Assembly: GCA_034620365.1 (NCBI GenBank)
Contig: JAQGEQ010000071.1
Location: forward strand, 4,154,001-4,218,000
Reading direction: 5' to 3'
Source of the DNA: Pegea sp. RAD2-039
Taxonomy: Eukaryota > Chordata > Thaliacea > Salpida > Salpidae
DNA: 64,000 nt
Shown here: positions 38,201 through 62,510 of the stretch, in pieces
Layout of the letters: every line of letters begins with the position of its first letter
Position numbering within the stretch: position 1 is the first letter of the stretch
Position numbers and translations under genes: made by a program
The notes under the pieces: generated by a model
Told to the model about the DNA's origin: nothing
The model's input: only the letters and a program-made list of their open reading frames with translations
Database searches by the model: none

Positions 38201-41200
38201 ACCATCTTCAGCCAAAATCTCGTGTTGAAGAACTCGAAGAATGATGAGAAGTCCGTCGTGACGTAAGAAAGCGCGCGCAAAGTCGCGATCCTCATCGACG
38301 TCATCATCATCGCTGTCACGGATGAGTAATCCGCTGAGGACTTCGAGATTGTATCGAAGTCGAAAGAGGTTCATTTCAGGTTCGGTGAGAGCGAAAAGTT
38401 GACGCATCGACGTAGCGCGTCGTCGTCGTGTTTCTGCTGCTACGTCATCATCATAAACAGCTTCGAGACGTCGCAACACACGAGGATCAGGCGGGAGGAG
38501 AAGTAGGATACGTCGCGCGCTTGCTGTGACGTCACTTTGATCGTAATCAGTGAGCGCGAAGAGTTGATCATAGAAGTTGCTACCGATTGAAGCTAGTGCT
38601 GCTGCTGGTAGCTTCTCGGCCTGTGACGTCATCAGTTAGTGACGTAATGAAGGTGGTAACAAGGTTACCTTGGTGGTTGGTTGCTCGGTAACGGAGTTGT
38701 TGGTGATTTTGACGACCAGTTCTTGAGATTCAGCAAAACCAGCAGCTTCTATACTACATCTATCAAACTGAGGTGGTAGCAACTTGTGTGCGAACATCTG
38801 GACGTTGTCGGCATGACAACTGTACATTGCTGCAAGGCGCATACGCAGACGACCCACAGAGTGGTTAGCTGGAAGAGTGGAGATCTCTGGTTCGAGTCCA
38901 TCGAGTCTTGAATGGATCTGGACCGGAGTGCCACGATAAAACTCGCCATGTGTGGGTCGCGTGTTAGGATCAAAGGGTGCATGGGCTTCAACGCGCGATA
39001 CATAGAGATGTAGAAGTGATAAAAGACGGTCGATGACGATGTATCTGTGACGAGAAGTCGGTTGGCATAGCAACACACCTTCTACACTTCTCACCAACTT
39101 GTTGCCAGGTGTGTTAGTAGTCGTTGGTGGTTCAGTGCCGTTGATGTTAGCCATTACCTGAATCACGTGATTTGATTGGTTGAAAATGTTGCGATTTTAT
39201 GCAAATTACCTCAAGACGATGATAACAGTGATTAAGAAAACGTTGATGAAGATGAAGACAATCTTGTTTGAGATTACTACTGACATTTAGATAAGAATAA
39301 TTGACCAAGTTAGTCATCGCACAATCAACCACCAACTGATCTTTACACTCCAAACAAATCTTCCACAAATGATCGATCCCCGTCAACTCCAAGTTCTCAA
39401 CAATCTTCAACAAACGAACTTTGAAGAGATCTGATTGGTTAATGAAATCGCGTCACTTACAGCTTCTTTTGAACTCATTTTAATCTTATCTTCACTGATG
39501 TTGACAAGTTCCATGAAAGCCAGAAAACATTTGAACATCTCCACCGACATCTCAACGAGATTCACTTTCAAAATTCGTTCCCTACAAACGTCATTAAACA
39601 ACCAGTTACGTCACTAATGACGTCATCACTCACTTGAAAAGAGCTTTTCCTGATTCACAATCAAGATCAGAGATATTTTCTACAAACCACTTACAACAAA
39701 CGATGACGTCACGATCCGTCGCGATTCTGATGTAAGAAATGATGAAATGAAAGCGATTAAGGGAAGTGAAAGTAACCTGTTGCCAACCAGACCGTCCCAC
39801 AACTCTTTGGCCCGATTCCATGGCAAGTACAGGTCCCCTTTGTCAAGAAGAAACTTCAAAAAGTCCAAATGTGCCTCCAGATACTAAACAAGATGACGTC
39901 ATGTGGTGCTTATGACGTCATAGGGCCGATCAAACCTCGAGATGAGTGTAGCGTCCATCAAACATGGTGTCAGTGTCAGGACAGTTGTTAGTCTGATGAC
40001 ATTTGGACAGACTGTTGACCACCAACTTGACCAGTTCGTGGTTCCGGTTCAATTCACTCAAATAAATTCGTTCATTTTTATACTGGCGGTATGGTTGACC
40101 TTTGGTACGGTTACGTAGCAACACGTGCATCTGACGCAGTGCTGGTACGACCCATTGTTCCTGATGACGTCATGATGACGTCACTGCTGACGTAGGAGCG
40201 ATAAAAACCTTTTTGATGTCTTCAATACATCGATGAATGAAATCTTTGTGTAGAAAATCCTTAGTAGCAAAAGAATCCATTAGAATCTGTTGATGTTCTT
40301 GAAGAGCCATCTCTACTACGTTGTGGGACAGTTTGGGCAAATGGGCCAAGTCCCAGAGCAAGGTGAGGACCTGAAAGGTGGTTTGAAGTGAGTTGAGGGA
40401 CATGGGACGGTTTGTACCTTTTCAGTTTGCCTGTTGGCTCGAAATTTCTTTCCAACAAGTCCAATAAAAGAGATGAGTTGTAAACGCGCGCGTTCGTCTT
40501 CTTTCAGCCACGATTTATGAACTAATTTGTACAAAACATCGAGTTGACGCTCGTTAAATTCAGGTGCAGCACTTGCTACAATCAGTTGGATATTCTCCGC
40601 AACTGATAAACTGGTGTTGTCCTACAAAGTCAAAGATGCATGACCGAGCACGTGATCACGTGGTTACCTGTAACCTCCACAGTTGCGCCAATTCATCCAT
40701 ACTTAATCGATCGCCAATAAACTCGACTAGTACTCGTATTTTATCCGAGTATTGTGATTGGTCGATATGACTGTCCAATGAAATACTGAGAATTTTATGA
40801 GTGGTCAACCAGTCTGTGAATTTCTCTTCTGGTATATGAAAGTTGTTGGGGTCCACCCCTGTGCGTTTGCACGCGTTCACATTGCTGATTTCTTCAACAG
40901 CTTTTGAGATCTGACAATAAATGAGCTTTCTACCGGCTTTTCAGCTTTCAATTCCCGCCAACTTACCTCCTTGAGCCCGTTCATTTTAGCATTAAAATGG
41001 GGACAAGAAATCATCTTCAAAATAGTCTTCAGACGCAAATCATCGACATTGTCGACTTCTTTGGGCCACAAAACCACGCACACGGACTTCAACACGCTCA
41101 ACAAAGCACTTACCGAGCCCACCGACTATAAAACAAGGGTTAGGGGGAGGAAATAGAGGGCGGAACATCACCTTGTGTTTTAGATCCTCATCTTCAAGGC

Positions 41201-43891
41201 AATGGATGTATTCTACAGAACTTTCAACAACATCAACCAACAAGTCTTGAATTTTAGACGGATTTAGAAAATGAGCACAATTAGCAAATGGTTGGAGGAC
41301 AATTGTGTAATGGTGGGCATCAATAGAGGTCTCGTTTAGTTTCAAAGCATCTTTTAGAGCTTCTATCCCTTCCTGGAAAGAAGAATTTGAATATTTGCAA
41401 GCTCATAACCAACTTGCTTACCAATTCGCAAAATTTGTTGATCAAATTTACCATCCAACCAAATTCTGGTTTATAATCGTTAAACTCTGCATCAGAGTTG
41501 GTTGTCTCTGTATTAGGACGAGCAAACACCTGGTCCTCGCTACCAAACTTGCCGACCCAAATAGTTGAGGCCCACCCACGGTTTCTATTCTTTACATTCC
41601 ACGGAACCGTAGAATCAAATATCTTTGGATAAAATAATTTTGTTTTCTTTTTATTCAAACACAAATGGATGAAGTGAACTTTGCTGTTGTTCAAAACCTC
41701 TAATTCTAATGATAGAAACCTCAACAAGTTATCAAAAAACTTATCAGTAGTAGCTGCAGCTGGAATTTGTAGATAAAATTGAAAACAAATACGAACCATA
41801 GCAAGAATAGACATCAATTTAAACGGCATTGGTTTGTGTTTCAAACGCTCGACTACTAGGTTCAAAAAAATGATTGTCATCTCGTAGATACCCTCATGAA
41901 TGTCATTAAGCCATCTACAAACAAATTAATTAGTTATATTTTCGACAAGTGATTACAAGAACCTTGATACAGAAGGTGTTCCAAAAAGTTTGTTGAAACA
42001 TTCAGGTAGGCAAGTCTCTAAAAACCTCATACAATGTTCATCTGACTCATAAACATCTACAGATGAAAGATTATTGGATTGAGAAGATGAACTTGATCGA
42101 ATTTCTTACCAATTTTCATTAATTTAGTCGCACTAATCATACATTTAGCAAATGACTGATCTCTTTTGAAAGGAATAGACCAATTTTCACAATAGACACG
42201 CTCTTCTAGCTGAATGAGGTGGTTAAAGGGGAAGATAACGTCACCATCATCTATAATTAACAACTTTTAAATTATCAATCGATATATATCAAAAAAATTG
42301 ATTAAAAAAAGTAAATTATGGAAATATTGGAATGTAATTTAAATACCATCACAAGAAGTGGCAGATATCAAATCATCAGTATCATCTTTAGTGGAGTTTT
42401 CATAAGATGGTATATCCAAATTCTTTATTCTAATTAACATATTTTTATTATCAGTTCCTTATTTATAATCTAAAGAAAATATAAAAGAAGAAACTAACCC
42501 TTCTAAAGGTTGTTCCATTGCTATATCATTCATTGAGTCACTACTACCAGCAGTTAATATTGTAACAGCTTCGTTCACATCATTGTTTATTAGCTTCAAA
42601 GCTTTACGTATATCTGTCTCTTCAAAACCCATACCTATGTTTGATATATTAAATTTAAGTAAAGTGTATAATAGAAGATAGTAATAACATAATTAACAAA
42701 TTTGAAATGATAATGACATTGGTGGTCTGATTTCCTGGTTGCAATAAATTATTAATTAAGTTTAGCTAAAAAGAAAAATAAATTTTAGAAAAGGTTAGGC
42801 AAATTACTGATAGGTTTAAATTAAAAACATCAGAAGACAAAGATAATGACTTGTAAAACTACCAACAAGATTTAATCTATATAAATTAATTTTTTAAAAA
42901 TACATCTTTTTAATTTGAATGATAAAAATAAAACATCCAAAAAATATATAAAATTTTCATAAAAGTTATTTCAAGTTCAGACAACAAAATTAAAACAAAC
43001 ACTAAAAATATCTCAAGTAGATATACAATTAAATAAAAAAAACATCAATTGAAGGAAAATATAGGAAAATAAACAAAGTTATATCAACAATGTATTTATT
43101 ATGAAACAACTTTGTAGAGTTTATGATAAACAACTTGAAAACTATAAAAGAAAGTTTATTTTATGATTACTGGAAGCACTAAAATGATTTATAAAATTGA
43201 GTCAAAAACAAAGCCTCATTAGGAATATTTGGATATATATGCTAATATTTGATGATCAACTACAAGTTGCACTTTCAACCACTAAGTGTAAAGTTTTCTA
43301 GAAAACATAACAATAATGAAACAATTGAATTATGAATATTTCTATAATTTTTTGTGCTTCATCAATATCAAACTGAATTTAGTTGTGAAAGGTTAAATAA
43401 TAAACTGATTTAATTTTGACAAATTGCAAAAAACTGATCTAAATGTAAAAATTTTTTAATGCTCAATAAGCAATTTCTACAATTTTGTAATGTTAAGAAT
43501 TTAAACTAGTTATTTTAAATATAAGAACAATCAAAGTATCATTTTAAATTAACAATATAAACACTGAAATAAAATTGCTACAAATTATTAAAAAAATCAA
43601 AGTTTTAAGTGAATTGGTCGACTTTCAAATCAATGAATCAACATAAAAGTTAAATTCTAAATTTAAAATATTCTAATCATTTTGTAATTTAAAGAAAATC
43701 AATGCGAGATATTTGAGCTAGATGCTTTAATAAGATAAATAGATACAGAGAAAGATATTTAAAAATGATTATAATCTAAAATATGATTAATTTTAATATA
43801 ATCATTTTCAAATTAACAAAAATCATCATTAATAAAATATAATTTATTTACCTTTTAAAGTTTGTACATTTTCTTCAAATAAATCATTCAT
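32240..43891 (-). CDS. USP24: Ubiquitin carboxyl-terminal hydrolase USP24
   Basis: Deubiquitinase, cysteine protease family C19. Exon 1 (43891-43852) plus exon 2 (42634-42499) encode a UBA-like helix set (MGFEETDIRKALKL..NDVNEAV) as at the USP24 N-terminus. Next come helical scaffold blocks: WSIPFKRDQSFAKC (exon 42250-42110), IHEGIYEMTI (~41900), GWMVNLINKF (~41440), SPHF-like CPHFNAKMNGLKEV (~41000), LLWDLAHLPKLS (~40350), HRCIEDIKK (~40210). The catalytic core has GLCNAGATCYMNSVIQQL with the Cys codon at 36165-36167, a CxxC zinc ribbon (KICEGCPHRYERE, ~35710; CEKCNKK, ~35580), and QAGHYYSF with the His codon at 34649-34651, followed by FND. C-terminal blocks end with FQRTISAQKTL (~32400) and stop at 32240. 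I traced the C-terminal exons fully and others by landmarks only, so mid-gene exon borders are approximate. Many introns are under 100 nt. Confidence 0.93.
34990..35560 (-). repeat. Intronic 15-bp minisatellite with higher-order structure
   Basis: The USP24 intron between the zinc-ribbon exon and the His-box exon is filled with gcaaccatcagcatg units (variants catagc, cacc). A distinct variant, tagcaattatcac(t/c)agc, recurs at 35041, 35189, 35337 and 35530, giving larger blocks of 148, 148 and 193 bp. The 15-bp unit keeps several frames open on both strands (MATISMATIS.., HQHGNHQHSN.., ADGCHADGC..), and these are not genes. Confidence 0.92.
36608..36972 (-). repeat. Intronic GATGAAGACACA minisatellite in USP24
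   Basis: A tandem array of 12-bp-like units (gatgaagacacag, gatgaggaagacacag) lies between the exon ending ..SHRIDKKQIG (donor near 36972) and the exon beginning GERIVERLLLFF (acceptor AACAG near 36608). Plus-strand translation gives a striking D/E-rich ORF (36542-37066) and minus gives Ser/Val-rich ORFs. The USP24 sequence joins smoothly across the array when it is removed, so it is intronic. Confidence 0.88.
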
Positions 43892-45833: not shown

Positions 45834-47686
45834 TCAGTGACGACGATAACGATGGCGAATTTTATGCCAACAGCTTACAGCTATTTCTCCATAAGAACAA
45901 CCAGTACAACAATGCTCTCTAAGATGTTTTGGCGTCCGTTCATAAGTAGTACTGAAAACATAAAATGAGATGTTCTAAAAACTATACTTTTGTTGTCAAT
46001 TAGATAAACAGATAATGAAACATGTAAATAAATTGTTTACTAAAATTAAAGCCAACTCTAGGATTAATTCAAACTTACGCTTCTGGATAGGTGAGTCGTT
46101 TTCTTCGTTTCCTACCATATCTTCTCGGACCACAAGTTACAGCATCAGGCCCATACACATCCATTGCTCCCTTGCAGGTTAATCCCCTTGCTGGAAAAAA
46201 ATTAAACTGTAGTTTAGTAATAACAAAATTAAATTAAATATATATAAAATTATGAGTTTTATTCAATAAGTACTTTGATAACCTTTGAAACTTAAATTGG
46301 TCATAACAAGCTATACTTGAACTTAAAAGTTATTATCAAATAAAATCGTAGTTTATAATTATTCTCAGTCGAAATTACAGAAGCCGCTTGCCAGTTACCA
46401 ACCAGTTAGCTTGGTCTCATATATTTATCTCTTATACATATTATCATTTATTATATTATTATTATACTATTTATGAAATTATTATTGCAATTTTTCTTAA
46501 ATTTGTTTCTATTCAAACCTTCATAATAACTGTTTGCAGCAAAACTTCACTGCTTACACTATATTTGATAATTATTAGATATTATGTTAAAATTATTTAT
46601 AATATTACTATTATTCGTTTTGGTTTCACTTACAGTATCTGCAGCAGTGACGTTGCAGCATCATAGGCATTGGTGGGGGAGGTGGCACTCCACAGATATC
46701 TCTGTATACTTTAATAAACAGATTTCCACATAATCCTGTAGAATCGTAAAAACGGTAGCCCCCTGGTAATATTTTTTCTTTTTTTGTTGTAGTTGTTACA
46801 GTTGTTGTTTTGGTTGTTGTAGTTGGTACAGTTGTTGTTGTAGTTGGTAATGTCGTTGTTGTAGTTGGTAAAGTTGTTGTTGTTGTTGGTAAAGTCGTTG
46901 TTCCTTCTGTTGTTGTTGGTAAAGTCGTTGTTCCTTCTGTTGCAGTTGGTAAAGTCGTTGTTCCTCCTATTGTTGTTGGTAAAGTCGTTGTTCCTTCTGT
47001 TGCTGTTGGTAAAGTCGTTGTTCCTTCTGTTGTTGTTGGTAAAGTCGTTGTTCCTTCTGTTGTTGTTGGTAAAGTCGTTGTTTCTTCTGTTGCTGTTGGT
47101 AAAGTCGTTGTTCCTTCTGTTGTTGTTGGTAAAGTCGTTTTTCCTTCTGTTGTTGTTGGTAAAGTCGTTGTTCCTTCTGTTGTTGTTGGTAAAGTCGTTT
47201 TTCCTTCTGTTGTTGTTGGTAAAGTCGCTGTTCCTTCTGTTGTTGTTGGTAAAGTCGTTGTTCCTTCTGTTGCTGTTGGTAAAGTCGTTGTTCCTTCTGT
47301 TGTTGTTGGTAAAGTCGTTGTCCTTCTGTTGTTGGTAAAGTCGTTGTTCCTTCTGTTGCAGTTGGTAAAGTCGTTGTTTCTTCTGTTGTTGGTAAAGTCG
47401 TTGTTCCTTCTGTTGTTGTTGGTAATGTCGTGGTTTCTGTTATTGTAGTTGCTAAAGTTGTTTTCAATTTACTTATGGTTTCTGAATCGTTAAATGGTTC
47501 TGGTGTTTCATCTGGTCCAGTAAATAATGAAAGAAGCTCGTCTTCTGTCAGATTGACAACAGGTTTTTCAGTAGCGGCAACTGTTAAGTTTTTTAGAAGA
47601 GGCACTTGTTGCCGGGCCACCTTCACAATTAAGAAAGTACCACAAAAAACACCGATTAAAAAAAAGGCCGAAAACCAAAATTTCAT
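45834..47686 (-). CDS. Relaxin/insulin-like peptide precursor, copy 1, frame broken
   Basis: Three exons on minus: 47686-46634, 46190-46079, 45951-45834. It begins MKFWFSAFFLIGVF, a signal peptide shared with copies 2 and 3. A unique Thr-rich mucin-like block (TEGTTTLPTT repeats) comes next. Then follow LLPGG-like ILPGGYRF, the B-chain-like LCGNLFIKVYRDICG, a proline run, CC..C..C in a KGAMDVYGPDAVTC context, a basic cleavage site (RKRRKR) and an A-chain-like HCCTGCSYGEIAVSC. Exon 1 is 1,053 nt. The phase-1 junction shared by copies 2 and 3 needs one more base, and one repeat unit near 47321 lacks a T. As written, the signal peptide frame runs into Q-rich frame-shifted sequence and stops at 46967. 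Either a pseudogene or a sequencing slip. An AATAAA on minus lies near 45,730. Confidence 0.75.
46800..47430 (-). repeat. Coding 30-bp minisatellite (Thr-rich domain)
   Basis: About twenty units of roughly 30 bp (plus strand: gttggtaaagtcgttgttcc with a ttctgttgttg link) inside exon 1 of copy 1. In the gene frame each unit encodes TTTLPTTTEG-type sequence, a likely O-glycosylated spacer. Two 27-bp units near 47,330-47,400 keep the frame, and one unit near 47321 is a base short and breaks it. Plus-strand V/G-rich and L-rich ORFs here are shadows. Confidence 0.92.
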
Positions 47687-48248
47687 GTTTTACTTTTAAA
47701 AACTTGTTTTCCTATTAAATAAAATAAAGCATTTTAGAAATAATTTTCTAAGTTCTTTAAATATATCAAAAGTATTTACTTAAATAGACGAAAAGAGAAT
47801 AATAACAAAGCCAAAAGCAGACAAAACTTCTCTCAAAGACTGAGTTTGGCAGTCAAGGGTGTCTTGGGGCGTCACATCAAGGCACTAACTTGGTTTTGTA
47901 TAAAAAAATTTTCTGATTGCACAAATTTCAAACACTGCCTATTCTTTAACATCTTGTAAATTTATATCCTCAATCAGTAAAACGAAACAGAATCATTTAC
48001 CTAAATGTACTTTTCTGGCAATACCTTTAAGGTCTACAAGTCGTATTGAAAGAGTTTTAGTTCAAAGTACTTGCTTACTTGATTCAAATCTTAAGTAAAA
48101 AATTCTATATTATGGATACTAATCTTATAGATTAATTTTGTGCTTGTTGATTCTTTCAAATTACTTCTAACTCTATAAAGCAATTGATAAGAGGTGATGA
48201 CTCAGAAAAGCTGTTAGAAATTAGAAATCTCTAATAAAAGTTGTGCTT

Positions 48249-48331
48249 TTAGCCAAAGGCTGACGAGTTGGTTGATCCATCTGAAGGTGCTGAGCTTCTG
48301 TGGGGCATCTGTATTTCTACCACCTTTTATA
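48249..48331 (-). promoter_or_regulatory. TATA box plus conserved 19-codon ORF, copy 1
   Basis: TATAAAA (minus) at 48331-48325 is followed 17 nt later by an ATG at 48308 opening a 19-codon ORF (MPHRSSAPSDGSTNSSAFG, stop 48249). The same arrangement occurs before copies 2 and 3. The main start codon is about 620 nt further on, which implies a long 5' UTR or a spliced leader exon. Confidence 0.5.
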
Positions 48332-48359
48332 TTGTAAAATCGAACGGTTTTCTGTAAAT

Positions 48360-49379
48360 AAATTTACAAAATGCTTTAGTTTTCGTCATTTCAAACATTT
48401 CATAAATGAAACATTTTATATTTTAAACTTTCCTTTATGAAATGTATGAAATATTTAGAAACTGATCCCTATTTTTAAAGTCCGATTAAATTCAATTGAT
48501 CTTTATTTGAAGGCCTCACTATAAAACTTCACTAAGGGTCATGCGCCGAAAAATTGTCCAAGTGTGTCAAGTTGCCCGATTTAGTATTTGGTTAAGTACG
48601 TTTGACGAAAGACGAAGTCTTATCGGTTTAGTTCCAGATCTTTAAATAATAATAATTATCATAAAGATTCGTAATTAATTAATCAGAAATATACTAATGA
48701 AACTTTAAAGTCACCGACTGCTCACCAACTATATTTAAATACAGCCGGACGAAACCAAAAAGTATTAAGAGCTTCACAAAATAATAAGGTACAACAACTA
48801 TTTGGGGAAATGAAATGCTGCTCTAGTCAGTAAGAGTCGCGATAAATCGAATCCTAAAATTTGTGACAACAGTTCATCCCGTAAATTATATTTATTTGTT
48901 AAATCTAATTAAAAATTTTGCTCATCCATAAGACTTCTTAATTGATGAAAATAAATATTTTTATATATTTATACAGACTTTTATTTGTAAAAATAAATTT
49001 TATAATTACTTGTAAATGTTTTTATTATCATATTATTTCATATTAATTTTTAGATACTGTATTATATCTCAGTGATGTTGACAAAATGAACCTAAGCTTT
49101 CAAAACGTCCTCACTAAAGACGACAATTATAGAAATATTATTTTAAAGTAATCAAATCTAATGGAAAATATCACTAATTTTGACATTTTCATTTCCACAA
49201 CATCAAGGACAAATTAAGTCACACTAAAAATTACTTTATGGAAGAGTTCCTACTTTATTCTAGTTTTTATTTTGTTAAGAGACCTATTCTAATTTACATC
49301 CTGTATTACACGCCTTTAATTGCTCTTTATCCTCCAGTTTCACAATAGAAGAGCTTCATCATTATTCTATTTTATATAA
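48360..49379. other. Spacer between divergent peptide genes
   Basis: AT-rich sequence without a supported gene. Parts near 48,380-48,450 contain aaatgaaac/tttatgaaat inverted runs like those beside the CR1-like 3' ends at 58.2, 62.5 and 63.7 kb, which hints at retroelement debris. Confidence 0.4.
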
Positions 49380-49660
49380 AAGGAAACAGAAAAACCCACT
49401 AAATTATCGACCAATTTCTTTTACAAGTAGCTTCAGTCGAATCTTCAAATTTATTTTTCGCAAAAATTTCTCTCATCTTCTCCACCAACATTTACTTTCT
49501 AAATATCAATTTAGGATCCTTCGTAAGACTCGTCATTAAATTAAATTGATTAAATGTTGTTTTGTATTTACCACTGGCTATACTACTCAATGACAAGACA
49601 GTCCAAATAAAATAGCCCTTAATATTATTACTAATATAAATAATATAATGATACTATGAG
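49380..49660 (+). mobile_element. CR1-like reverse transcriptase fragment
   Basis: A frame of about 54 codons (49380-49541) contains NYRPISFTSSFSRIFK and HLLSKYQFRILR, the conserved start of the non-LTR RT fingers (family NYRPISLTS..R..E, LLS..QFGF). Flanking frames are broken. It is an isolated, dead fragment. This RT segment is missing from the copy at 56.4-58.2 kb. Confidence 0.75.
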
Positions 49661-50033
49661 AAGCGTTATATGAGTCTGTTCTATGACAGCATTTCTAGGA
49701 GACGCAAAACCCCAAATTTAAAGGAGTTGAAGCCCTATTAGCAGTTCGTCGCTGTACTAATTTTGGCGTGGATAGAGCAATCTTGCTACATAGGTGTAAT
49801 AAAAAATAGCCGTTTATACAGAGCTTTATTCAAATAAATAAGACGACTAACACAACGATAATCTATTTATTTTGCACATCGTAGATAGCTGAGCTCATTC
49901 CACTTTAAATAGATTTTGAATCTTGCAAATTTTCAATTTCCGAGCATCATTTCCACTTACAAAGTTCTTCGAAGTTCTAGTATCTATAAGAGTTATAAAT
50001 ATCTTCAAGTAAAGACATTCACCATCGCATGCT

Positions 50034-50444
50034 TCAACTTCTGGGAACATCGAGTAAGCGCGAGGACTTCATGCTATTGTATCTCTCTCCATTCTTTGTC
50101 TTCTTGACTGATTCTTGGGAGATCTCTTCTGAAGATGACAGGCTGACTATAGTGTCCCTTCTTTCTAGAACCGTCAAGGGTTTAGATTCTAGGAATATTA
50201 AAGTTTCACGCTCCAACAACTTTTGCCTTATATCTGCTGAGGATAATTCATCTCTAAATAAATCTCTGATCATACCATTTTTGTGTTCTGTTGCCATGAC
50301 ACTCTTAAAATCACAGTTCTTGGCCAGGTGTATCAAAGAGCATTGAAAGCCTTTTATAGATTGACTTGGCATCTGCTTCTTCGTTCTTGGTAGATGACGC
50401 AAAAAAACATTTGGTTTCTTTACATAAAACCGTTCCAGTGACAC
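50034..50444 (-). mobile_element. Ty3/Gypsy gag-like fragment
   Basis: A 136-codon minus ORF includes LIHLAKNCDFKS followed by MIRDLFRDELSSADIRQKLL and a segment like ETLIFLESK. This matches the usual gag pattern (L..LA..C.F, MIRD..V.G, IR..LL). Order within the ORF is that of a gag C-terminal half. No LTR or zinc knuckle is evident. The Gypsy pol remnant at 55-56.4 kb lies on the same strand but on the wrong side to be its own pol, so this is probably a separate insertion. Confidence 0.6.
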
Positions 50445-51480
50445 CTGATCTTCTACATAAGTCTGATAGATCTCGAATTATTCATACACGTCTGAAGTTG
50501 AACAATTAACAGATGTAGTTGATTTGTCAAAATCATCATCTGACAAAACCTTGTAGAGGAAATTGGTAAAAGTTTTCTTCAAGTGACGTCATTCCTTGGC
50601 TACCGACCAACTATTCCGGTTTATAGAAGAACCATAGGTTTATACAGCATATCCATTTTTTTTTCTTTTTGTTACACTATAAAGAAACTAAAAAAAATCT
50701 TCGTTACATTATAAAAAACTAAATATACTAATTCGAATAGATTATTATTTAAATCTATCCTAGGTATACCACAAAGAAGCTATCTTAACCGTTGCTAAGC
50801 TTTACTTACACTAAGCCCTAATAACGCTAAAACAACTGGCAACAATTCGCCTCAGAAATAAAATTTACTTAAGTTGAATAAGTTGCAACAAAATGACCCT
50901 TAATATGGAGCTTTATTCAAATAATTAAGGAAACTAACCTAACGAGAAGTATGTCAACAATACGCGATACCTTCAACAAGTCTATGACCGAATGGCAGTC
51001 GTTCATAGTGTTTTGCTTTGTTTATTTTTAACATCATCACTCAGAGCACATCTCGCCTGACCGTTATCGGCCGATGCAGGCATTTATTGTCATTATTATA
51101 TATCCTGCATTAGATAAACTTTGAACTGAAATGTAGAAATGGTTGCTAATACCAACATGAATTAGTACTTGAAGATCTAAAACTGCGTGAAGCTTCACCA
51201 CACTTCATTCCCGCAATAAAGATGTAGAATCTCCAAAATGAAGTCTTTGAAATTAAAATTAAGATGTAGAATGACCACGTGAGTATAATATTTTCATCAG
51301 AAATAGGTTGGGCCAGTTGGACTCATTGATTTGTACAATTCTTTGGTGCATGACCCTTAGTGACCTTATATTGTAAGACCTTTTCATAAAGATTCATTAA
51401 AAGGAAATTAAATAAAAAACAATGTATTACTGTTTTCTAAATATTTCCAAATTTTTTTTACGAAATGTTTGAAATGAGAG
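50445..51480. other. Intergenic sequence, no gene seen
   Basis: Mixed AT-rich sequence with one TGACGTCA near 50584 and no supported coding region. The right end grades into the conserved 5' flank of relaxin-like copy 2. Confidence 0.4.
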
Positions 51481-51522
51481 AAATCAATTCATTTTGTAAA
51501 TTTATTTACATAATGTATACAA

Positions 51523-51605
51523 TATAAAAGGTGGTAGAAATACAGATGCCCCACAGAAGCTCAGCACCTTCAGATGGATCAACCAACTCGTCAGCCTTTG
51601 GCTAA
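51523..51605 (+). promoter_or_regulatory. TATA box plus conserved 19-codon ORF, copy 2
   Basis: TATAAAA at 51523-51529, then an ATG 17 nt on (51546) opening MPHRSSAPSDGSTNSSAFG, stop 51603-51605. It is identical in layout to copies 1 and 3. About 560 nt of strongly conserved flank follows before the main ATG at 52167. With a TATA-directed start near 51553, the small ORF's ATG could fall just outside the transcript, so translation is uncertain. Confidence 0.5.
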
Positions 51606-52166
51606 AAGCACAACTTTTATTAGAGATTTCTAATTTCTAACAGCTTCTCTGAGTCATCACCTCTTATCAATTGATATATAGAGTTAGAAGTAATTTGAAA
51701 GAATCAACAAGCACAAAATTAATCTATAAGATTAGTATCCATAATATAGAATTTTTAACTTAAGATTTGAATCAAGTAAGCTGGTACTTTGAACTAAAAC
51801 TCTTTCAATACGACTTGTAAGCCTTAAAGATATTGCCAGAAAAGTACATTTAGGTAAATGATTCTGTTTCGTTTTACTGATTGAAGATATAAATTTAAAA
51901 GATGTTAAAGAATAGGCAGTGTTTGAAATTTGTGCAATCAGAAAATTTTTTTATACAAAACCAAATTAGTGCCTTGATGTGACGCCCCAAGACACCCTTG
52001 ACTGCCAAACTCAGTCTTTGAGAGAAGTTTTGTTTGCTCTTGGCTTTGTTATTATTCACTTTTCGTCTATTTAAGTAAAAACTTTTGATATATTTAAAGA
52101 ACTTAGAAAATTATTTCAAAAATGCTTTGTTTTATAAAATAGGAAAAGAAGTTTTAAAAGTAAAAC

Positions 52167-53033
52167 ATGAAATTTTGGTTTTCGGCGCTATTTTTATTGG
52201 GGGTTGCTTCTTTAGCACCTAATGCAACTGCGAAGATCATTGGAGAAAAGCCGGATTTATATGATGATTATATAGTAGCCCCAGAATTTACTACCGCACC
52301 CACAAAAGAAGAAAAACTATTACCAGGAGGTCTCCGGTTTGACGATTATAGAGTACTATGTGGAAATCTGTTTATTAAAGCATACAGCATTATCTGTGGA
52401 GCCCCACCGCCGCCGCCAATGCCAATGATAATTCAACGTAACTGCTGTAAATACCGTAAGTGAAACTAAAATGAATAATACTAAAAATAATATTAATATA
52501 ATATCTAATAATTATTCAGCCTTATTTAAATATAGTAAGGCAGTGAATGTTCTACTTAAGTTTTGAAGGTTTTCAAAGTACTTATTGAATAAAACTCACA
52601 ACTTTATATATATTTAATTTAATTTTGTAGTTACTAAACTACAGTTTAATTTTGTTTTCAGCAAATGGAGTAACCTGCAAACAAGCAATGAATGTATTTG
52701 GGCCTGATGCTGTCACTTGTGATATGGACAACGTGATGCAACGTAATCCTTACAGAAAGAAACGACAAAGCGTACTAAGCGTACAATCGTAAGTTTGAAT
52801 TAATCCTAGAGTTGGCTTTAATTTTAGTAAACAATGTATTTACATGTTTTATTATCTGTTTATCTAATTGAAAACAAAAATAAAGTTTTTAGAACATCTC
52901 TTTTTATGTTTTCAGTAATCATTATGAACGGACGCCAAAACATCTTAGAGAGCATTGTTGTAATGGTTGTACATATGGAGAAATATCTGTAAGCTGTTGG
53001 CAAAAAATTCGCAATGAATACCGCCAAAACTAA
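52167..53033 (+). CDS. Relaxin/insulin-like peptide precursor, copy 2
   Basis: Three exons: 52167-52455, 52662-52788, 52916-53033; 534 nt = 177 aa plus stop, intron phases 1 and 2. A signal peptide (MKFWFSALFLLGVAS) is followed by an acidic spacer. B-chain-like LCGNLFIKAYSIICG has Cys65-X11-Cys77, resembling relaxin LCG..hV....hCG. A PPPPPMPM run, Cys93-Cys94, Cys102 and Cys116 follow. RKKR at 128-131 is a furin/dibasic site, and the C-terminal peptide has CC at 153-154, Cys157 and Cys166 (CC-X2-C-X8-C; insulin and relaxin use CC-X3-C-X8-C) with GCTYGEI like relaxin GC[ST]xxxI. The ten cysteines exceed the usual six to eight. Function inferred: secreted hormone or growth-factor-like peptide. 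Poly(A) signal AATAAA near 53,130. Confidence 0.75.
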
Positions 53034-53419
53034 ATCATGTTCAGTATATTTCTAATGTCTGTTTTCCAAGATGGTTTTTCTTAATTTCAAGTTCTTATTA
53101 AGCTCGTATTATAGTTCTATTGCAAACAGACAAATAAACTTTTACCTTGAAATTTGAATTGTTCAGCATAAAAGTAGTAAGAATATTCGATTAAATTTTT
53201 ACCTAATCTGTTAGATATAAGTAGAAATTATAAATAAGTTTTTGTGTTGTACTGGTTCTAACCGATAAGTTCAAACTAAATATTAAAAAAATTTATAAGT
53301 CGAAAAACTTATGCTAAAGCTTATTTTGAACCGTCTTCGAAATCTAGAATAAAAAGTTTAAAAAAAAAGTAATTAGATCAAAAGTCCGCTTGTTGGACAT
53401 GAAGAGTAGAGAGACTTTT

Positions 53420-53870
53420 AATTCTTATAATCCTTAGTTCTTCATCAACCTTTTCAAAGTGTACTTACGACCCCCATTTCTTGAGTAAATTGTCAGTGCA
53501 AGGACGCCATGTGAAGTTGTAGATATCATAAAAATCAAGTCTGTTCAGGCAACATTTACGAGATTTATCTGCAGGAAACTTACTATTAGATGCGATAGTT
53601 ATAAACATCATCTTAGCTTCTTAAATTTAGATAATTGGGAAATTTGACAAATTAAGTACGATTTAATTCTTATTTTTGAAATTATCCACAATTTAGTTGA
53701 CCTTAAATTCGATGAATTCTTCTCAATTAACTCTACTCTCAAGTTTTATCAACTCAGACGACACACATTACATCTTAATAAGCCCATATCACCTCGTACG
53801 TTAATCAGATTGAATTTTTTCTCATACTGTACAATTAGTACTTGATACAATGTAGATTTACAATTAGTCT
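53420..53870 (+). mobile_element. CR1-like 3' fragment
   Basis: Matches the RT C-terminal and 3' region seen at 57.5-57.9, 62.0-62.2 and 63.0-63.4 kb, including the 'aggaaactta' and 'tatcaactcagacgacacac' stretches. It is broken by many stops. Confidence 0.7.
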
Positions 53871-53888
53871 AGATTAGTGTATATATAT

Positions 53889-54750
53889 GTCGGGGCAGAA
53901 GTTGTTGTCCATGCAGCAGCATTCTCTATGCCAACAAGGTGATACAGCGGAACATATGGAATGATGCAGCTGTACCCCGCTGGCGTCCTAGGAGTTGCCA
54001 GAACAACACTGAGTACGGTGACAAACTGCCTACGAAACTCCAACTCCGGCTTCTAATTCGGAGTTTTGTATCTCCTTGAAGTATTGTCATTAACCAGACT
54101 CACAGGTCCTTCTAACCGTGTTTTATATATGAAATTTTTATTGTCACAAATAGGTGTCCACCCAGGCTTAAGCCTAGAACCTTTGGCATGTCGGGCGGGC
54201 GTGATAACCGCCACACTACAGAGATTTATATATAGATAAAATATTCTAACTAGTACTTTAGCTGCGTCAAATCGATCAATTTATATTTAAACAGCTTTTG
54301 AGTTTGTGATGGATTGTTACTGTCTCGATAAAATATCTCAAATATAATCTAAAATATCGATTGTGGAAAGAATCTGGCAACTTGCATAGAATTCAAAGAT
54401 ATTTTATTTAACTTTCCAACTGATCGTTCTTCTATTTGGTTGAGATTATGTTCAAGTTGACAATCCAGAAGAGAAAGTAACTTGAAATGGAACTAGTTTA
54501 ATAGACTTTCACTATCAAACCACAAAAATTTTGTTGTATGAGTGATTGTTACTCTCATTTCAAGCTTTTTATACCTAAAAAAGAAGGTTTGATGGATGAC
54601 AAAAGATAAATTAAAGATGCAAATGAGAAACAAAGAAGATTATCATAGAAGTTATTGATTAGTGTTTCAAAAATAAGCTTTTGCTGCGTCAATCCTTACG
54701 TAGATTTTTGTGATTTTTCAAAACTATTTGAAAAGCTGTTTTGTTGACTA
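53889..54750 (+). repeat. Dispersed repeat (copy of 25.8-26.5 kb) with insert
   Basis: Collinear with 25,830-26,490. Relative to that copy it carries roughly 210 extra bases (about 54,142-54,355), which include a tRNA-like segment. The rest differs by scattered substitutions only. Confidence 0.82.
54155..54223 (-). other. tRNA-Val-like pseudogene / SINE segment
   Basis: The minus strand reads a sequence close to eukaryotic tRNA-Val: GTAGTGTGGCGGTTATCACG (D-arm and box A region, normally GTAGTGTAGTGGTTATCACG), then an anticodon-loop region that would align GAC with the anticodon, CAAAGG, and a T-arm GGTTCTAGGCTTAAGCCT in place of GGTTCGAAACC. Position 33 is C instead of T and the T-loop is altered, so it is not a working tRNA. 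It sits inside the ~210-bp insert that distinguishes the two dispersed-repeat copies, as expected for a tRNA-derived SINE or a captured tRNA pseudogene. Confidence 0.6.
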
Positions 54751-54962
54751 ATAATTTTGCGAGATCAAAGAATTGATGTAGTGTGTACGAGTTAACAACT
54801 GCTAGATTCCTTAAAGAAACGTTGGAAACCCTAGTATCCGGATAGTGGACTCGCGCTTACATCGGGTTAGCTACCAGCAGTTCAACTTCCTTTATCATCC
54901 TCTGCAAACATAGCTCCGCAAGAGTACTGGTCCTGATCTGTCAATCCGGTAAGTTGCGTTCC

Positions 54963-56365
54963 TTAAAGCTGAAGAACCTTGAGTGAGGATTTTCGTTTGT
55001 TGATGGACATAACAAAGACCAAACAGCACTCAACACTTGTGGTAACACGTCTTCCTAATCTTTGAGAGGTCGATCTCTGGATTTCAAGGCACTCCTCACT
55101 GCCCTCCAGACTATTCCACCTCTTCACCTGGCCATTACCTTGTGGATGCTTGGGATTTGTCCTACTGCTTGAAGTGTCTTTTCGTATTAGACAATCCTTC
55201 CTTTGTCGAGACATGAAAGTCGAATCTCATTCGGAATGGATAGGACTGCAAGCTCCAAACAATTTCTCCAAGCTGCTAATTACCGTGTTAGAATCTACTT
55301 TACAACAGGGAAAATAAAAAGGAAATGTAGAAAATTCGTCAGAAATTTACAAGTACTACTTGCAATAGTGCCCTTAAAATCCACGTTAAGTTTTTCCATC
55401 TTCTATGAAGCATTGATGAGAGTGTCATCGCTCGCCTGGTAAAGCTTTCGGCAAACTTCCGAGCAGATTTCGCACTCATCACGGTCAGTATGGGAGCTTT
55501 CATGACCTCACATAATGCTGCACTCTACTGGACACCCAGGCAACACAAAGTTTTGTGAAGCATCTTAGTAGCAGCTTTTGTCGTCGATATAGCTTCATGG
55601 TAGGTACTCGATAACGCATCACGCCTTACATTTTCATCTCCTGGTCTAGATCTTATAGTATACGAAAAAGGTACCAATTACATCTTCCAACTTTGAATTT
55701 GGCATTCTTGATTTTCGACTTCTTCTTAGAGTCTAACATAAACACCACCGACCTTTGATCCATTATCAGAAAGAAGTGTTCCCTCATGAGCAAGTGACTC
55801 CATTTTTGAGTTAATTCGATATCGGCAGTTACCACCTTCTTCACTGCAGGGCGAATCGACTCCGACCCTTATAAGGATCTCGACATAAAGGGCACTGGAC
55901 GTTCATTTTGATTGAGAGTGGCTACATCACTTGCATCACATTCAGCTGTGAAGGGTAAGACTTCATCCATGTTGACTTGGCAATATCCTTTGTTGAGCTC
56001 TTTAAGATCCAGAATCTCTCTTTCACTGAAAGGAAGTTGATGAAACTTTTTCAGACGTTTAATTTCATCTGAAAAATTACAGATCCATCTGGAGTAATAA
56101 TTTGTTGGATGCTGTAGATCTATCAGAGGTTTCAAGCGCCAAGGATCAGGCTTAACTTGATTTCTCCCAAAACAATGACCTAGGAAACATATTCTACTTC
56201 ATATACTGTCTTCGATTCATTTAAAGTCATTTTTCCGTCCAACCGACTTAATAAACATCTTTTAATGCTTTTGTATTCCTCTAACGAGTTGTCTTCACTA
56301 ATCACATTATCAAAATAAACTAATATATCTTCAAGCCCTTTGCTTTTTACTACTTCCTTCATTCT
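54963..56365 (-). mobile_element. Ty3/Gypsy pol remnant
   Basis: Minus-strand fragments occur in pol order. At 56362-56180 there is an RT block with ILVYFDNVI (degenerate YxDD). At 56135-55869 a connection/RNase H block has YYSRWICNFS, AECDASDVA, RPVPFMSRSL. At 55844-55653 an RNase H block has FFLIMDQRSVVFMLD and KIKNAK. At 55442-54963 there are broken frames where integrase should lie. Frames are interrupted by stops and shifts; no gag and no LTR pair were found beside it. It is dead. Confidence 0.8.
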
Positions 56366-58150
56366 ATTTGAATAAGTGCTTATAAGTTGTGATATAGTTA
56401 TTTATAGGAAGTGATTTGTATAGTATATATATATTGTGATTGGTGACAGTAAAAATCTTTTATGAAAACTATGGATTCACATAAAAGTGGCAAGACCTTA
56501 CGGTCTACTGTAAAGAAAAATCCTGAAAAACCGACTTCATCAAAACAACCAACTGATTTCAAATACAAAGTTCGAGGTTCACCATGGGCCTTCAGAATTG
56601 TCAAGGTTTTTTTAAAAAAACGGAAGTGGCAAATAACCACTGAACCCACATCTTCTTTTTTCAAACTCTTTCCGGACACAATTGTTAATACCCAAGATAT
56701 CAATTTACAGAAGTCCATCATCAAATCTCACAAGCATCAAAAAGACAATTCTTTTATTACATTAGGTATGTTCTTCAACGTACGGTCGATTATTAAGAAA
56801 ATTTTTCAATTGAAAGCTCTTTTGCATTCCCATGATTTCACATTTGTTTTAATTACTGAAACATGGTTGAAACCGTTTTATCCTGATTCTTTTCTGGTTG
56901 ACGGTAATCATTTTTGGGTTTTGCGTTGAGTTAGACTGTATGATAGAGGCGGCGGTGTTTGCGTAATTTACATAATATCGCTTGTACCCAAGATCTCTAG
57001 AGTACAGATCGATCCCATTAGTTATCCAGGGTTTGAGATTATCGCATTTGATTTTCATTACTCAAAATCCAAATTTTCTCGTTTTTTATGTACCTATCTA
57101 CCACCCTCTAAAACTAATGATGGGGTTACTGTTAACGCCTTATTGAAGGTTTTGAAGAGTGTATACATCAAAAGGCTAGTAGCTTATTATCTTGTAATCC
57201 TTCACAACTTTAAACAGCTCTACACAGACAACTGGTCTATGAACTGGCAGCTCAGAATCCAACCCAGAAAGTCTAAGCTTATAACTTTTTCTCGTAAACC
57301 AGCTGCAAACTCCTTGAACCAATTTTCTATCAATGGATTTCTTAATAAACGAATATCTTCGGTCCTACACCTTGGCATTAACTTTTCATCTAACTTTAAA
57401 TGGCACAATTATGTTGCACAAAATCTTTAGAAAATCAATTAACCTTGTCTTCCTTATTATGAAGACCTTTAATTCTAAAGACCCATGCTTTTATATCAAT
57501 CTTTTCAAAATGTACGTACGTCCAATTCTTGAACAAAATATCAGTGCATGGATACCATATCAATTTGGTGATATCAAAAAATCGAATCTGTTCAGACAAT
57601 ATTTACATGATTGATATGCAGGAAACTTAATATTAAATACAATAGTTATAAACATCGACTCAGCTTCTTCAGTTTAGATACTTTGGAAATTCGACGGATT
57701 AAATACGACTTAATTCTAATTTTTTAAAGTATCCACATTTAGTTGCCCTTAAATTTGATGATCTCTTTTCCATGAGTCCTTTCCTCAAGTTATATCAACT
57801 CAGACGACACATATTACTTCTTAATAAGCCCATATCACCTGGTACGTTAATCAGAACAATTTTTTTCTCACTCCGCACAATTAGTACTTAGAACCAGTTG
57901 CCATCAGACATTGTCATGTCAGAATCACTCATGCTGTTCAAGAAGAAGTTGAACCGCTATAATATTTGCCAACACTGCCATTTCTATACTGTTAACTTTT
58001 CCTTTTTTTAATATTATTATAACTCTATGTAATTCTTCATTGTTATATGCTTTGAAGGATTAATAGATGTTATTTATTAGAATGTGTGTTAGCGGGAAGT
58101 GCTCTCTATAGGCACCCTCCTTTACATTTATTGTAATAAATATATTAATA
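56366..58150 (+). mobile_element. CR1-like non-LTR element, internally deleted
   Basis: The 5' part (56366-56530) matches 61,020-61,200 and includes the ORF1 start. An endonuclease segment follows with FFNVRSIIKK, FVLITETWLKPF and, after a stop, YDRGGGVCVIY (apurinic-endonuclease-type domain of CR1/Jockey elements). It then jumps to the RT C-terminal region (RKSKLITFSRK, YVRPILEQNISAWIP) and the shared 3' end near 58,150. The RT finger/palm blocks are missing, so this copy cannot move by itself. Confidence 0.8.
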
Positions 58151-58291
58151 ATAAAAAATTCTGTTTTCTAAATGTTTCCTAAATTCATTTATGAAATTTC
58201 ATTTATGAAATTAGGAAATATAAATCAAAATATTTTGTAAATTTATTTACATTTACTAAATTTTGTAAATTTATTTACATAATGTATACAA

Positions 58292-58374
58292 TATAAAAGG
58301 TGGTAGAAATACAGATGCCCCACAGAAGCTCAGCACCTTCAGATGGATCAACCAACTCGTCAGACTTTGGCTAA
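58292..58374 (+). promoter_or_regulatory. TATA box plus conserved 19-codon ORF, copy 3
   Basis: TATAAAA at 58292-58298, ATG 17 nt later at 58315, and a 19-codon ORF ending at 58374 with one substitution (SSDFG for SSAFG). The main ATG is at 59075. A ~160-bp stretch at about 58,802-58,965 is absent from the flank of copy 2 and is an insertion in copy 3. Confidence 0.5.
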
Positions 58375-59074
58375 AAGCACAACTTTTATTAGAGATTTCT
58401 AATTTCTAACAGCTTTTCGGAGTCTTCACCTCTTATCAATTGCTATATAGAGTTAGAAGTAATTTGAAAGAATCAACAAGCACAAAATTAATCTATAAGA
58501 TGAGTATCCATAATATAGAATTTTTTACTTAAGATTTGAATCAAGTAAGCTGGTACTTTGAACTAAAACTCTTTCAATACGACCTGTAAGCCTTAAAGAT
58601 ATTGCCAGAAAAGTACTTTTAGGTAAATGATTCTGTTTCGTTTTACTGATTGAAGATATAAATTTAAAAGATGTTAAAGAATAGGCAGTTTTTGAATTTA
58701 GTGCAATCAGAAAATATTTTATACAAAACCAAGTTAATTCCCTGATGTGACGCCCCAAGACACCTTTGACTGCCAAAATCAGAATTTGAAAGAAGTTTTT
58801 TTTTGACTTTGTCAGCAGAGTAGTTTTTCTTGTTCGAATTGCTAAATTGATATAATGTTGGGATGTGAATGTTACTGGTGAGTTGAAATGTAATTTTAAT
58901 TTGTCTATTTGGTGAGCAAATTGAAGTGTGGGCACAGTAGAGTAAACAAAATATAAAAATTAATCTTTTTTCGTCTATCTAAGTAAATACTTTTGATATA
59001 TTTAAAGAACTTAGAAACTTATTTCTAAAATGCTTTATTTCATTAAGTAGGAAAAGAAGTTTTAAAAGTAAAAC

Positions 59075-60139
59075 ATGAAATTTTGGTTTTCGGCGCTTTT
59101 TTTATTGGGGGTTGCTTCTTCGGCTTATGCAAGTCGGTGGTTGTTTGTGGAAAGGGAGCCTTATTATTTAGATTATATAGAAGCTCCAATATTAGGTCCT
59201 AATGAAAGTGATGCGACTCCTACACTACCTACAGCAGAAGAAGAACAACTATTACCAGGAGGCTACCGTCTTAACGATTCTAGACCGTTATGTGGAAATG
59301 ATTTTATTAAAGTTTACACCGATATCTGTGGAATACCACCACCTCCAAGAATGCCAATGATAATGCAACGTAGCTGCTGCAAATACCGTAAGTGAAAATA
59401 AAATGAATAATAGTAATGTATTAGAAATAAGTTTTAAAAAAATTGCGATAATAATGCGATATATTAAATAATAATATATATAAAAGATAAATATATGAGA
59501 CCAAGTTAACTGGTTGGTAACTGGCAAGCGGCTTCTGTAATTTCGACTGAGAATAGTTATAAATTACAATTTTATTTGATAATAACATTAAAACTCAATT
59601 AAAGCTTGTCATGATCAATTTAAGTTTCGAAGGTTATCAATATTATCAAGGTTTGATAATAACTGTTCAGTTCAAGTATAGCTTGTTATATCAATTTCGG
59701 TTTTGAAGGTTTACTTATTGAATAAAACTGGCGATCTTATAAATTTTGGTTTAATTTTGTAATTACTAAACTAAAGTTTAATTTTGTTTTCAGCAAGAGG
59801 AAAAGCTTGCAAGGCAGCAATGAATGTATATGGACGTGATGCTGTAACTTGTGATATGTATAAAGATCGAAAAAAACGACACAGTAACCCAGAATAGTAA
59901 GTTTGAATTAATCCTAGTGTTGACTTTAATTTTAGTAACAATTTGTTTACACGTTTTATTATCTGTTTATCTAATTGACAACCAACTTATACTTTTATAA
60001 TATCTCTTTCTATGTTTACAGTACTCCTACGAGATGGACGCCAAGAAGTCTTAGAGATCATTGTTGTGCTAGATGTACTTATGGAGAAATATCTGTAAGC
60101 TGTTGGCATAAAATTTTCCATCACTATCTCCGAAACTAA
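59075..60139 (+). CDS. Relaxin/insulin-like peptide precursor, copy 3
   Basis: Exons 59075-59387, 59794-59896, 60022-60139; 534 nt = 177 aa plus stop, with the same intron phases (1 and 2) as copy 2. It has a signal peptide MKFWFSALFLLGVASSAYA, an LLPGGYRL block, B-chain-like LCGNDFIKVYTDICG (C-X11-C), CC plus two further cysteines around KAAMNVYGRDAVTC, a basic site (RKKR) and a C-terminal HCCARCTYGEISVSCW (CC-X2-C-X8-C). The third exon is the best conserved part among the three copies. Intron 1 shares a block (gttggtaactggcaagcggc) with intron 1 of copy 1 but not copy 2, so copies 1 and 3 retain sequence lost from 2. The poly(A) signal AATAAA lies near 60,244. Confidence 0.75.
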
Positions 60140-60967: not shown

Positions 60968-61019
60968 AATCAAACAAATTTACTCACTTGGACTATAAAT
61001 ACCATTCTATTTCAATAAG

Positions 61020-62510
61020 TTCTATTTGAATTAGTGATTATAAGTTGTGATAAAGTTATTTCTAGAAAGTGATTTGTTTATTATTTATATACAAAATATT
61101 GTGGTTGGAGACAGTAAAACTCTTTTCAAAAAACTATGGTCAATACACATAAAACTACCCAGACCTTACGGTCAATTGTAGAGAAAAATTCTGACAAACC
61201 AACTTCATCTAAACAAGCTTGCAACGGCAATTGCCAATCATGCAATAAAATTTGCTCTGGTGAAGATCAGTAAATAAAATGCCTTAAATGTACATTCTGG
61301 TTTCATCTCACCTGTAGTGATGTGGGCAAAAAAATTTACGATATATTTGATAACAACCAGATGAAGCAACTGGGATTTAAATGGTTCTTCATTAAATGTA
61401 GAACCATGGACACAACAGCTCCCTCATCCAATTCTAATCAAAACCAATTATCCGACATCAGCAAATCTATATCCGCTGAATTGGCAAAATTTAAATCTGA
61501 AACTTCCAAAGATGTTGCTAAGATCAACAAAACAATTTCTAGTTTGTCTAAATCAATGGACAAACTGTATGCCTCTACAAAGAAATAGGTCACATGGGCC
61601 TCGGTGGTCGGTGATCCCGGTTCCGACAAAAATTTTAACATGGTGCAGCTTCTTGCCAAGAAGGTCACCGACACGCACAAAAAACTCACTTTAGACAGTG
61701 AGGACAGAAAAACAATGTCATCGTCTTTAATGTCTCTGAAACTGATAAAGATAATGACAGCAAGTTTTTTAATCAAATGTGCTCTCAAAGCCTTGATTTT
61801 GTGGAAGTTCCAAAGGTATCAATGACCAGACTTGGAGCAAAAAGGTCAGATCATTAAAAACCGTTGAAAGTATCTTTTCAGGAAAATTGGAACAAACGCA
61901 AGTTTCTTGCCAAGTTGTATAAGCTAAAGCTTGAGAAAAAATTCTTTGATATATAGGAAACTTAAAATTTAATACAATAGTAATAAACATCGCTTTAGCT
62001 TTTTGAATTTAGATACTTTGGAAATTTGACAGATTAAAAATGACTTAAAATTTTAAATTTTCTACAATTTAATTGACCTTAAATTTGATGATTTCTTTTC
62101 CATGAGTCCTTCCCTCAAGTTATATCAACTCAGACGACACATATTACTTCTTAATAAGCCCATATCACCTGGTACGTTAATCATAACAATTTTTTTCTCA
62201 TTCCGCACAATTAATACTTAGAACCAGTTGCCATCAGAAATTGTCATGTCAGAATCACTCCTGCAGTCCAAGAAGAAGTTGAACCGTTATAATATTACCA
62301 ACACTGCCATTTCTAAGCTGTAAACATTTCCTTTTTTTAATAAAATTATAATTCTATGTAAATCTTCACTGTTATATGCTTTGAAGACTACCGAAATGTC
62401 ATGTGTTACCTCTTTTTTTTTCTATATTTCTAACTTAATAGATGTTATTTGTAAGAGTTTTTATTAGCGGGAAGTACTCTCTGTAGGCACTCTTCTGTAA
62501 ATTTATAAAA
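61020..62510 (+). mobile_element. CR1-like element: ORF1 joined to 3' end
   Basis: The 5' region matches 56,366-56,530. ORF1 starts near 61,136 and encodes a PHD/zinc-ribbon-like cluster (CNGNCQSCNKICSG.. then CLKCTFWFHLTCSDV) with an in-frame stop near 61,270. A coiled-coil segment follows (61322-61588), then a frame-shifted RNA-binding-like region (SVVGDPGSDKNFNMV, to ~61,900). After 61,940 the sequence jumps to the shared RT end and 3' UTR. ORF2 is almost wholly missing. Confidence 0.7.

Follow-up and report, generated by a model that had tools for sequence, protein, structure and literature searches.

The window analyzed here is a 64,000-nucleotide stretch from the salp Pegea sp. RAD2-039 (assembly GCA_034620365.1, contig JAQGEQ010000071.1, positions 4,154,001 to 4,218,000; 33.8% G+C), in which three related genes for secreted peptides with ten cysteines lie between positions 45,834 and 60,139; an earlier reading of the bare sequence, referred to here as the original prediction, had assigned them to the insulin/relaxin family. 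Gene models were made by rebuilding the exons from the sequence, with signal peptides judged by eye, and they confirm three genes at the predicted places, each with three exons, GT-AG introns and ten conserved cysteines. Copies 2 and 3 are found on the forward strand and each encode a product of 177 residues. Their first exon (52167-52455 in copy 2, 59075-59387 in copy 3) encodes the signal peptide, a PGG motif, a B-like C-X11-C (C65/C77 and C73/C85, respectively), a Pro-rich linker and the CC of a middle cysteine module; the second exon (52662-52788 and 59794-59896) contributes the middle C-X13-C and a furin-type RKKR, and the third (52916-53033 and 60022-60139) an A-like CC-X2-C-X8-C (CC at 52956 and 60062) followed by the stop codon. 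Copy 1 is on the reverse strand; its exon 1 (46634-47686, with the ATG at 47686) encodes the signal peptide, a Thr-rich repeat stalk, the B-like segment with its C-X11-C (LCGNLFIKVYRDICG, 46692-46730, a position reckoned from the end of the exon) and the first pair of middle cysteines, exon 2 (46079-46190) the middle C-X13-C and the basic site RKRRKR, and exon 3 (45834-45951) the A-like CC-X2-C-X8-C (CC at 45911) and a C-terminal tail. Copies 2 and 3 have introns in phases 1 and 2, as do three further paralogs introduced below (copy 4, P5 and P6), and the exon junctions of copy 1 join in the same frame as in these genes. Counted from the PGG motif, the spacing between cysteines in copies 1-3 is 11, 15, 0, 7, 13, a linker, 0, 2 and 8, in agreement with the B-like C-X11-C, the middle cysteine segment and the short A-like spacing originally described for these copies. 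The motif GC[ST]YGEI, also attributed to all three, is present in copies 1 and 2, whereas copy 3 reads RCTYGEI.

Copy 1 is set apart by its stalk, in which a 30-base tandem repeat within the coding sequence (46784-47462, reverse strand) gives Thr-rich, mucin-like units of the TTTLPTTTEG type; the best repeat row comprises 19.7 copies at 46878-47462, with a period of 30 and 90% matches. At the corresponding place the other copies have just a short Thr/Pro-rich stretch. As assembled, the repeat contains a one-base frame shift near 47330, which puts the signal peptide and the B-like segment in different frames; the break may be genuine or an error of assembly. The composition of the stalk hints at an O-glycosylated, mucus-like secretion.

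The description of a three-copy family proved to be an undercount, as the edge of the window had cut off further copies. An exon-by-exon search of the genome (105.7 Mb in 387 contigs, with copy counts to be read as lower bounds) returned at least six paralogs, all of them on the contig that carries the window (C1). Copy 4 is situated approximately 6 kb past the window edge (C1:4224242-4225371), and two divergent paralogs, P5 (C1:3130805-3131535, forward strand) and P6 (C1:3134955-3134162, reverse strand), lie about 1.07 Mb away. All six share the B-like C-X11-C, a middle CC-X7-C-X13/14-C and an A-like CC...C-X8-C, and in five of the six the reading frame is uninterrupted across every exon and the splice sites are GT-AG. 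In an alignment of 142 columns, composed of three segment alignments that cover exons 2 and 3 in addition to exon 1 from shortly ahead of the PGG motif, the ten cysteines are all among the 25 invariant columns, a conservation across the six paralogs that is more than chance. Elsewhere the divergence is considerable: compared with copy 3, P5 and P6 reach 35–46% identity over the B and A segments and 13–25% over exon 2. When P5 and P6 were themselves used as genome queries, they recovered the same six genes only, plus one weak match at E 1.16 on contig C116 (L047), which was rejected as a further copy because it has no A-like motif. A loose A-like pattern searched across the window and 60 kb around both clusters returned the family genes and two chance-looking patterns (L027 and L028). 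Relatives were found neither in the bacterial and archaeal genome collection nor in IMG/VR. As to the genome itself, neither Chitin_bind_4 nor the cuticle-collagen domain Col_cuticle_N was matched in it, which speaks against an arthropod or a nematode, although both searches were made without a positive control and do not establish absence; COX1 was not found either. Xenoturbella was set aside as a source in view of the 43% G+C reported for it (PMC11521371).

The family is probably a divergent, fast-evolving offshoot of the insulin/relaxin superfamily, whose members would be made as secreted preproproteins and cut a single time, by a furin-type protease, before the A part. This descent is argued from the canonical A spacing of the outlying paralogs, from a conventional insulin gene with a phase-2 intron on the same contig and from a similarity to known hormones that extends beyond the cysteines. 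The conventional gene (L006, C1:2085990-2086370) matches PF00049 at 29.6 bits against a cut-off of 23; its sole intron is in phase 2 and precedes the A exon, as does intron 2 of the ten-cysteine genes, and the tripeptide CTY in its A segment is common to copies 2-4. As the contig accounts for only 6.1 of the 105.7 Mb, the presence of L006 and all six paralogs on it is suggestive of local descent. L006 was the only match of its own kind in one of the searches, and its A segment is CC-X3-C-X9-C, one residue longer than usual past the third cysteine.

Similarity beyond the cysteines was assessed against 11 known hormones by shuffling each segment with its cysteines held fixed. The B segments of all six paralogs scored above their own shuffles (p = 0.0002–0.007; the B window is identical in copies 3 and 4), as did five of the six A segments (p = 0.004–0.027, with P5 at p = 0.054), although the six paralogs are non-independent tests. 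Genuine hormones left out of the reference set behaved similarly, with p = 0.001–0.016 for B and 0.001–0.025 for A, and 11 of 11 were below 0.03 in both chains. An insulin signature pattern is fitted by P6 alone among seven proteins; L006 itself does not fit. Joining the B and A parts of P5 with the middle removed gave a PF00049 score of 12.9 bits, which is below the cut-off of 23. Since cysteine-fixed shuffles of this piece matched PF00049 in 0 of 10 cases and Ins_beta in 1 of 10 (14.8 bits), the PF00049 score of P5 can be given some weight, and the Ins_beta score of P6 (see below) little. Ten shuffles of the P6 A exon matched neither profile, and NCBIfam returned nothing for P5 or P6.

Several results weigh against such descent. 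The profile search of the 177-residue products, which the original prediction had put forward as a check, gave no Pfam match for copy 2 (queried with one extra Ser) or copy 3, and with PF00049 included Pfam matched none of the five full-length proteins scanned (copies 2, 3 and 4, P5 and P6), none of the three exon pieces of copy 1 and nothing in the joined B and A piece of copy 4. A sequence search of the PDB with copy 2, the four-copy alignment and the P5 piece found no insulin/relaxin match; L006 also had none there. The joined B and A parts of P6 reached 14.9 bits against Ins_beta, no better than the score of one of the 10 shuffles of the P5 piece, and L006 has no phase-1 intron. Lastly, copies 1-4 are one residue short in the A spacing, and the canonical CC-X3-C-X8-C can be read as well in short open frames of a repeated sequence on contig C264, where no insulin B part is seen.

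The last two points require the A segment to be considered more closely. The shortening of the A motif, presented at first as a feature of the family, holds for copies 1-4 and is not family-wide, as the A segments of P5 and P6 have CC-X3-C-X8-C, the canonical insulin spacing. Because this divergent pair has it, the simplest reading of the CC-X2-C in copies 1-4 is a later loss of one residue within the tandem cluster, with the direction of change being inferred; and as copies 1-4 do not have CC-X3-C-X8-C, they are described as an offshoot and not as standard insulin members. The occurrences on C264 make the A spacing alone weak evidence. They comprise two repeated-sequence copies reading CCITLCTASYIIASC with canonical A spacing (L051, C264:5304-5366, reverse strand; L052, C264:30601-30663, forward strand), whose Ins_beta matches of 17.0 and 16.9 bits are below the cut-off; in one case a C-X11-C lies upstream on that strand, within a frame of 41 residues that lacks the LCG context. 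The pair was not accepted into the family and is taken as chance. A short open stretch on another contig (L007, C15:451606-451674, CCLIRCKLRQLRVFC) also has the canonical insulin A spacing and a PF00049 score of 19.1 bits, below the cut-off; no convincing B part was seen within its 3 kb locus.

The insulin/relaxin assignment is supported with regard to superfamily descent by the A spacing of P5 and P6, the insulin gene on the same contig and the residue similarity, while an affinity to relaxin did not emerge. The receptor motif of the relaxin B chain is RXXXRXXI/V, and by eye it is absent from the corresponding stretches NLFIKVYRDI, NLFIKAYSII, NDFIKVYTDI, DHYREVYKTI and KPFYALYREI.

The position of the basic sites bears on what the precursors would yield. 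RX[KR]R stands just before the A part in five of the six paralogs, P6 having no basic pair there, and none of the six has a basic pair separating B from the middle module; convertase sites flanking a removable C-peptide on both sides were not found. Other basic pairs are an RR inside the module of P5 and, before the B part, KK in copy 1 and KR in copy 4. Following removal of the signal peptide, the B-like and A-like segments would be expected to fold together through the three classical disulfides, and the four middle cysteines may form two further disulfides within the module. A furin-type protease would then cut once, at the RX[KR]R before the A part, and because no basic pair separates the B part from the module in any paralog, the module would remain attached covalently to the B chain. 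Maturation is predicted to yield a two-chain ligand with five disulfides, which may act through a receptor; P6 may remain single-chain, as it has no basic pair before A. The proposal in full is a clade of the insulin superfamily in which the connecting segment has become a conserved disulfide module that is never cut from B, yielding a five-disulfide heterodimer of B-module and A, with one paralog carried on a mucin-like stalk and one perhaps single-chain; it is a tentative proposal, held with somewhat less than even confidence. An origin of the module by duplication of the A segment was considered and not adopted, as the mean alignment score between the two (19.7, against 15.8 ± 2.8 for shuffles) is not significant at p = 0.09, with five of the six middle rows used and that of P6 left out for its unequal length. 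Comparison of the middle with B gave p = 0.84, and of A with B p = 0.82 (four of the six A rows).

A related explanation accepts the superfamily descent and differs in function only: the proteins would serve in a non-endocrine role, such as mucus, secretion or a cue between individuals, and would have been diversifying after tandem duplication. It is rather unlikely, and the tempo of divergence among copies 1-4 can be read both ways. Intron 2 is 88–98% identical between these copies, in contrast to 62–95% for exons 2 and 3 (62–84% and 78–95%, respectively), a pattern that, together with the mucin-like stalk of copy 1, would suit such a role. The ratio of nonsynonymous to synonymous substitution rates (dN/dS), obtained as a Nei-Gojobori count on short segments with pairs involving copy 1 taken from the B part on, exceeds 1 for the A segment in four of the five finite pairs (0.66, 1.14, 1.24, 1.81 and 1.81), the sixth pair being undefined as it has no synonymous change. 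Over the alignable coding region, however, dN/dS is 0.59–0.92 and below 1 in six of six pairs, and intron 1 is only 65–88% identical, with large gaps, so that not all non-coding DNA outdoes the exons in conservation. In addition, dS is greater than the divergence of intron 2, which makes gene conversion, by homogenization, an alternative to diversifying selection that could give the same pattern. Positive selection is not claimed for these reasons: the counts come from short segments, intron 1 is no better conserved than the exons and dS exceeds the divergence of intron 2. In the flanks of copies 1-4, the alignable identity is 78–89% over 900 bases upstream and the identity over 250 bases downstream is 70–98%.

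The other explanation disputes the descent itself, holding that these cysteine-rich secreted proteins have no kinship with insulin, belong for instance to mucus, cuticle, egg coat or defence, and arrived at an insulin-like layout of ten cysteines by convergence. The five full-length copies without a Pfam insulin match, the Thr-rich mucin-like stalk of copy 1, the fast divergence of the exons and the chance occurrence of the A spacing could all be understood in this way, and secreted structural proteins with ten cysteines do exist in arthropods, namely Clf/FCP3 (PMC6391395). Convergence does not readily account for the combination of the canonical CC-X3-C-X8-C with the B C-X11-C in both outlying paralogs, for the residue similarity to hormones beyond the cysteines or for the presence on this contig of a conventional insulin gene whose A exon is preceded by an intron of the same phase, and it is considered unlikely. 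That the genes are decaying duplicates without function is highly improbable, since the frame break in the assembled repeat of copy 1 and the fast divergence, which would agree with decay, are set against five of six genes with uninterrupted exons and GT-AG splice sites and ten cysteines kept between copy 3 and P5/P6 despite identities of 35–46% (B and A) and 13–25% (exon 2).

With descent from the insulin/relaxin superfamily as the preferred reading, the family can be compared with known systems. Like the insulin, insulin-like growth factor (IGF) and relaxin precursors (PF00049), it has a signal peptide, the order B-C-A, a B part with C-X11-C, an intron of phase 1 in the C domain, an A part of CC-X3-C-X8-C in P5 and P6 and a convertase site before A in five of six paralogs. 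Unlike them, it has four extra conserved cysteines in the C domain and no basic pair between B and the module, its A part is one residue short in copies 1-4, and none of the five full-length proteins scanned has a Pfam match. According to PMC8286064, insulin genes characteristically have an intron of phase 1 in the C domain, and intron 1 of copies 2, 3 and 4, P5 and P6 is indeed in phase 1, after the middle CC. Two added cysteines, as opposed to the four seen here, are present in ambulacrarian octinsulins and some multinsulins, insulin-related precursors that have eight cysteines according to the same paper; octinsulin genes are described there with a single phase-1 intron in the coding sequence, compared to two introns in the salp genes. 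Ten cysteines are reported in the type delta insulin-like peptides (ILPs) Ss-ILP-2 and Ss-ILP-5 of Strongyloides stercoralis (PMC3493385), and the salp family is likened to these by the number of cysteines, not by their position. Nematode type beta insulins have eight cysteines in that account (PMC3493385), and the similarity of the P6 A exon to their profile (PF03488, Ins_beta) is weak, at 14.5–14.9 bits below a cut-off of 21. Insulin-like peptides with ten cysteines have therefore already been published for nematodes, and the present family is an unusual variant. Within the portions of open-licence literature covered, no paper was recognized on a conserved CC-X7-C-X13-C module in an insulin-like C domain.

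If the proposed product is correct, a family in which a retained second disulfide module replaces the disposable C-peptide would serve as a natural test of what the insulin fold tolerates, namely extra bonds, deletion in a loop and fusion to a mucin-like stalk, amid quick diversification by tandem duplication. The outlying paralogs P5 and P6 would provide the outgroup for dating the loss of one residue from the A segment. Insulin-related hormones occur across animals, and there is continuing interest in how the connecting peptide and the cysteine frame of such hormones can change.

Upstream of the genes lie blocks that are more conserved than most coding exons. These blocks of 300–678 bases (47659-48336, 51518-52195 and 58260-58720, one of them inverted) are 94–98% identical; 51491-51790 and 58260-58559 agree at 98%, and 47659-48336 and 51518-52195 at 94%. 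The stretch upstream of copy 2 (51491-52166, forward strand) includes blocks highly conserved with copies 1 and 3 and has TATAAAA at -644, and in copies 1-3 this motif is found approximately 640–780 bases before the ATG. Past the stop codon of copy 2, at +99, an AATAAA (53133-53138, forward strand) is a possible polyadenylation signal, with similar sites after copies 1 and 3.

Elsewhere in the window, a region on the forward strand at approximately 9000-23000 encodes EGF-like repeats, then ankyrin repeats and lastly a Gln-rich tail, an arrangement like that of a Notch receptor gene; the EGF and ankyrin assignments were each confirmed by Pfam in one open reading frame (ORF). On the reverse strand, 34196-42692 contains a ubiquitin carboxyl-terminal hydrolase domain (PF00443, 94 bits), and a UBA-like segment upstream of it on the same strand, scoring just below the cut-off, perhaps belongs to the same gene. 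Long simple-repeat stretches are present at approximately 34900-35600 and 36500-37070. Three ORFs of the retroelement region had no Pfam match. By eye, retroelement-like fragments occupy 53500-57900, between copies 2 and 3, and 61000-61800, past copy 3; two retroelement-like copies approximately 4 kb apart are 83–84% identical.

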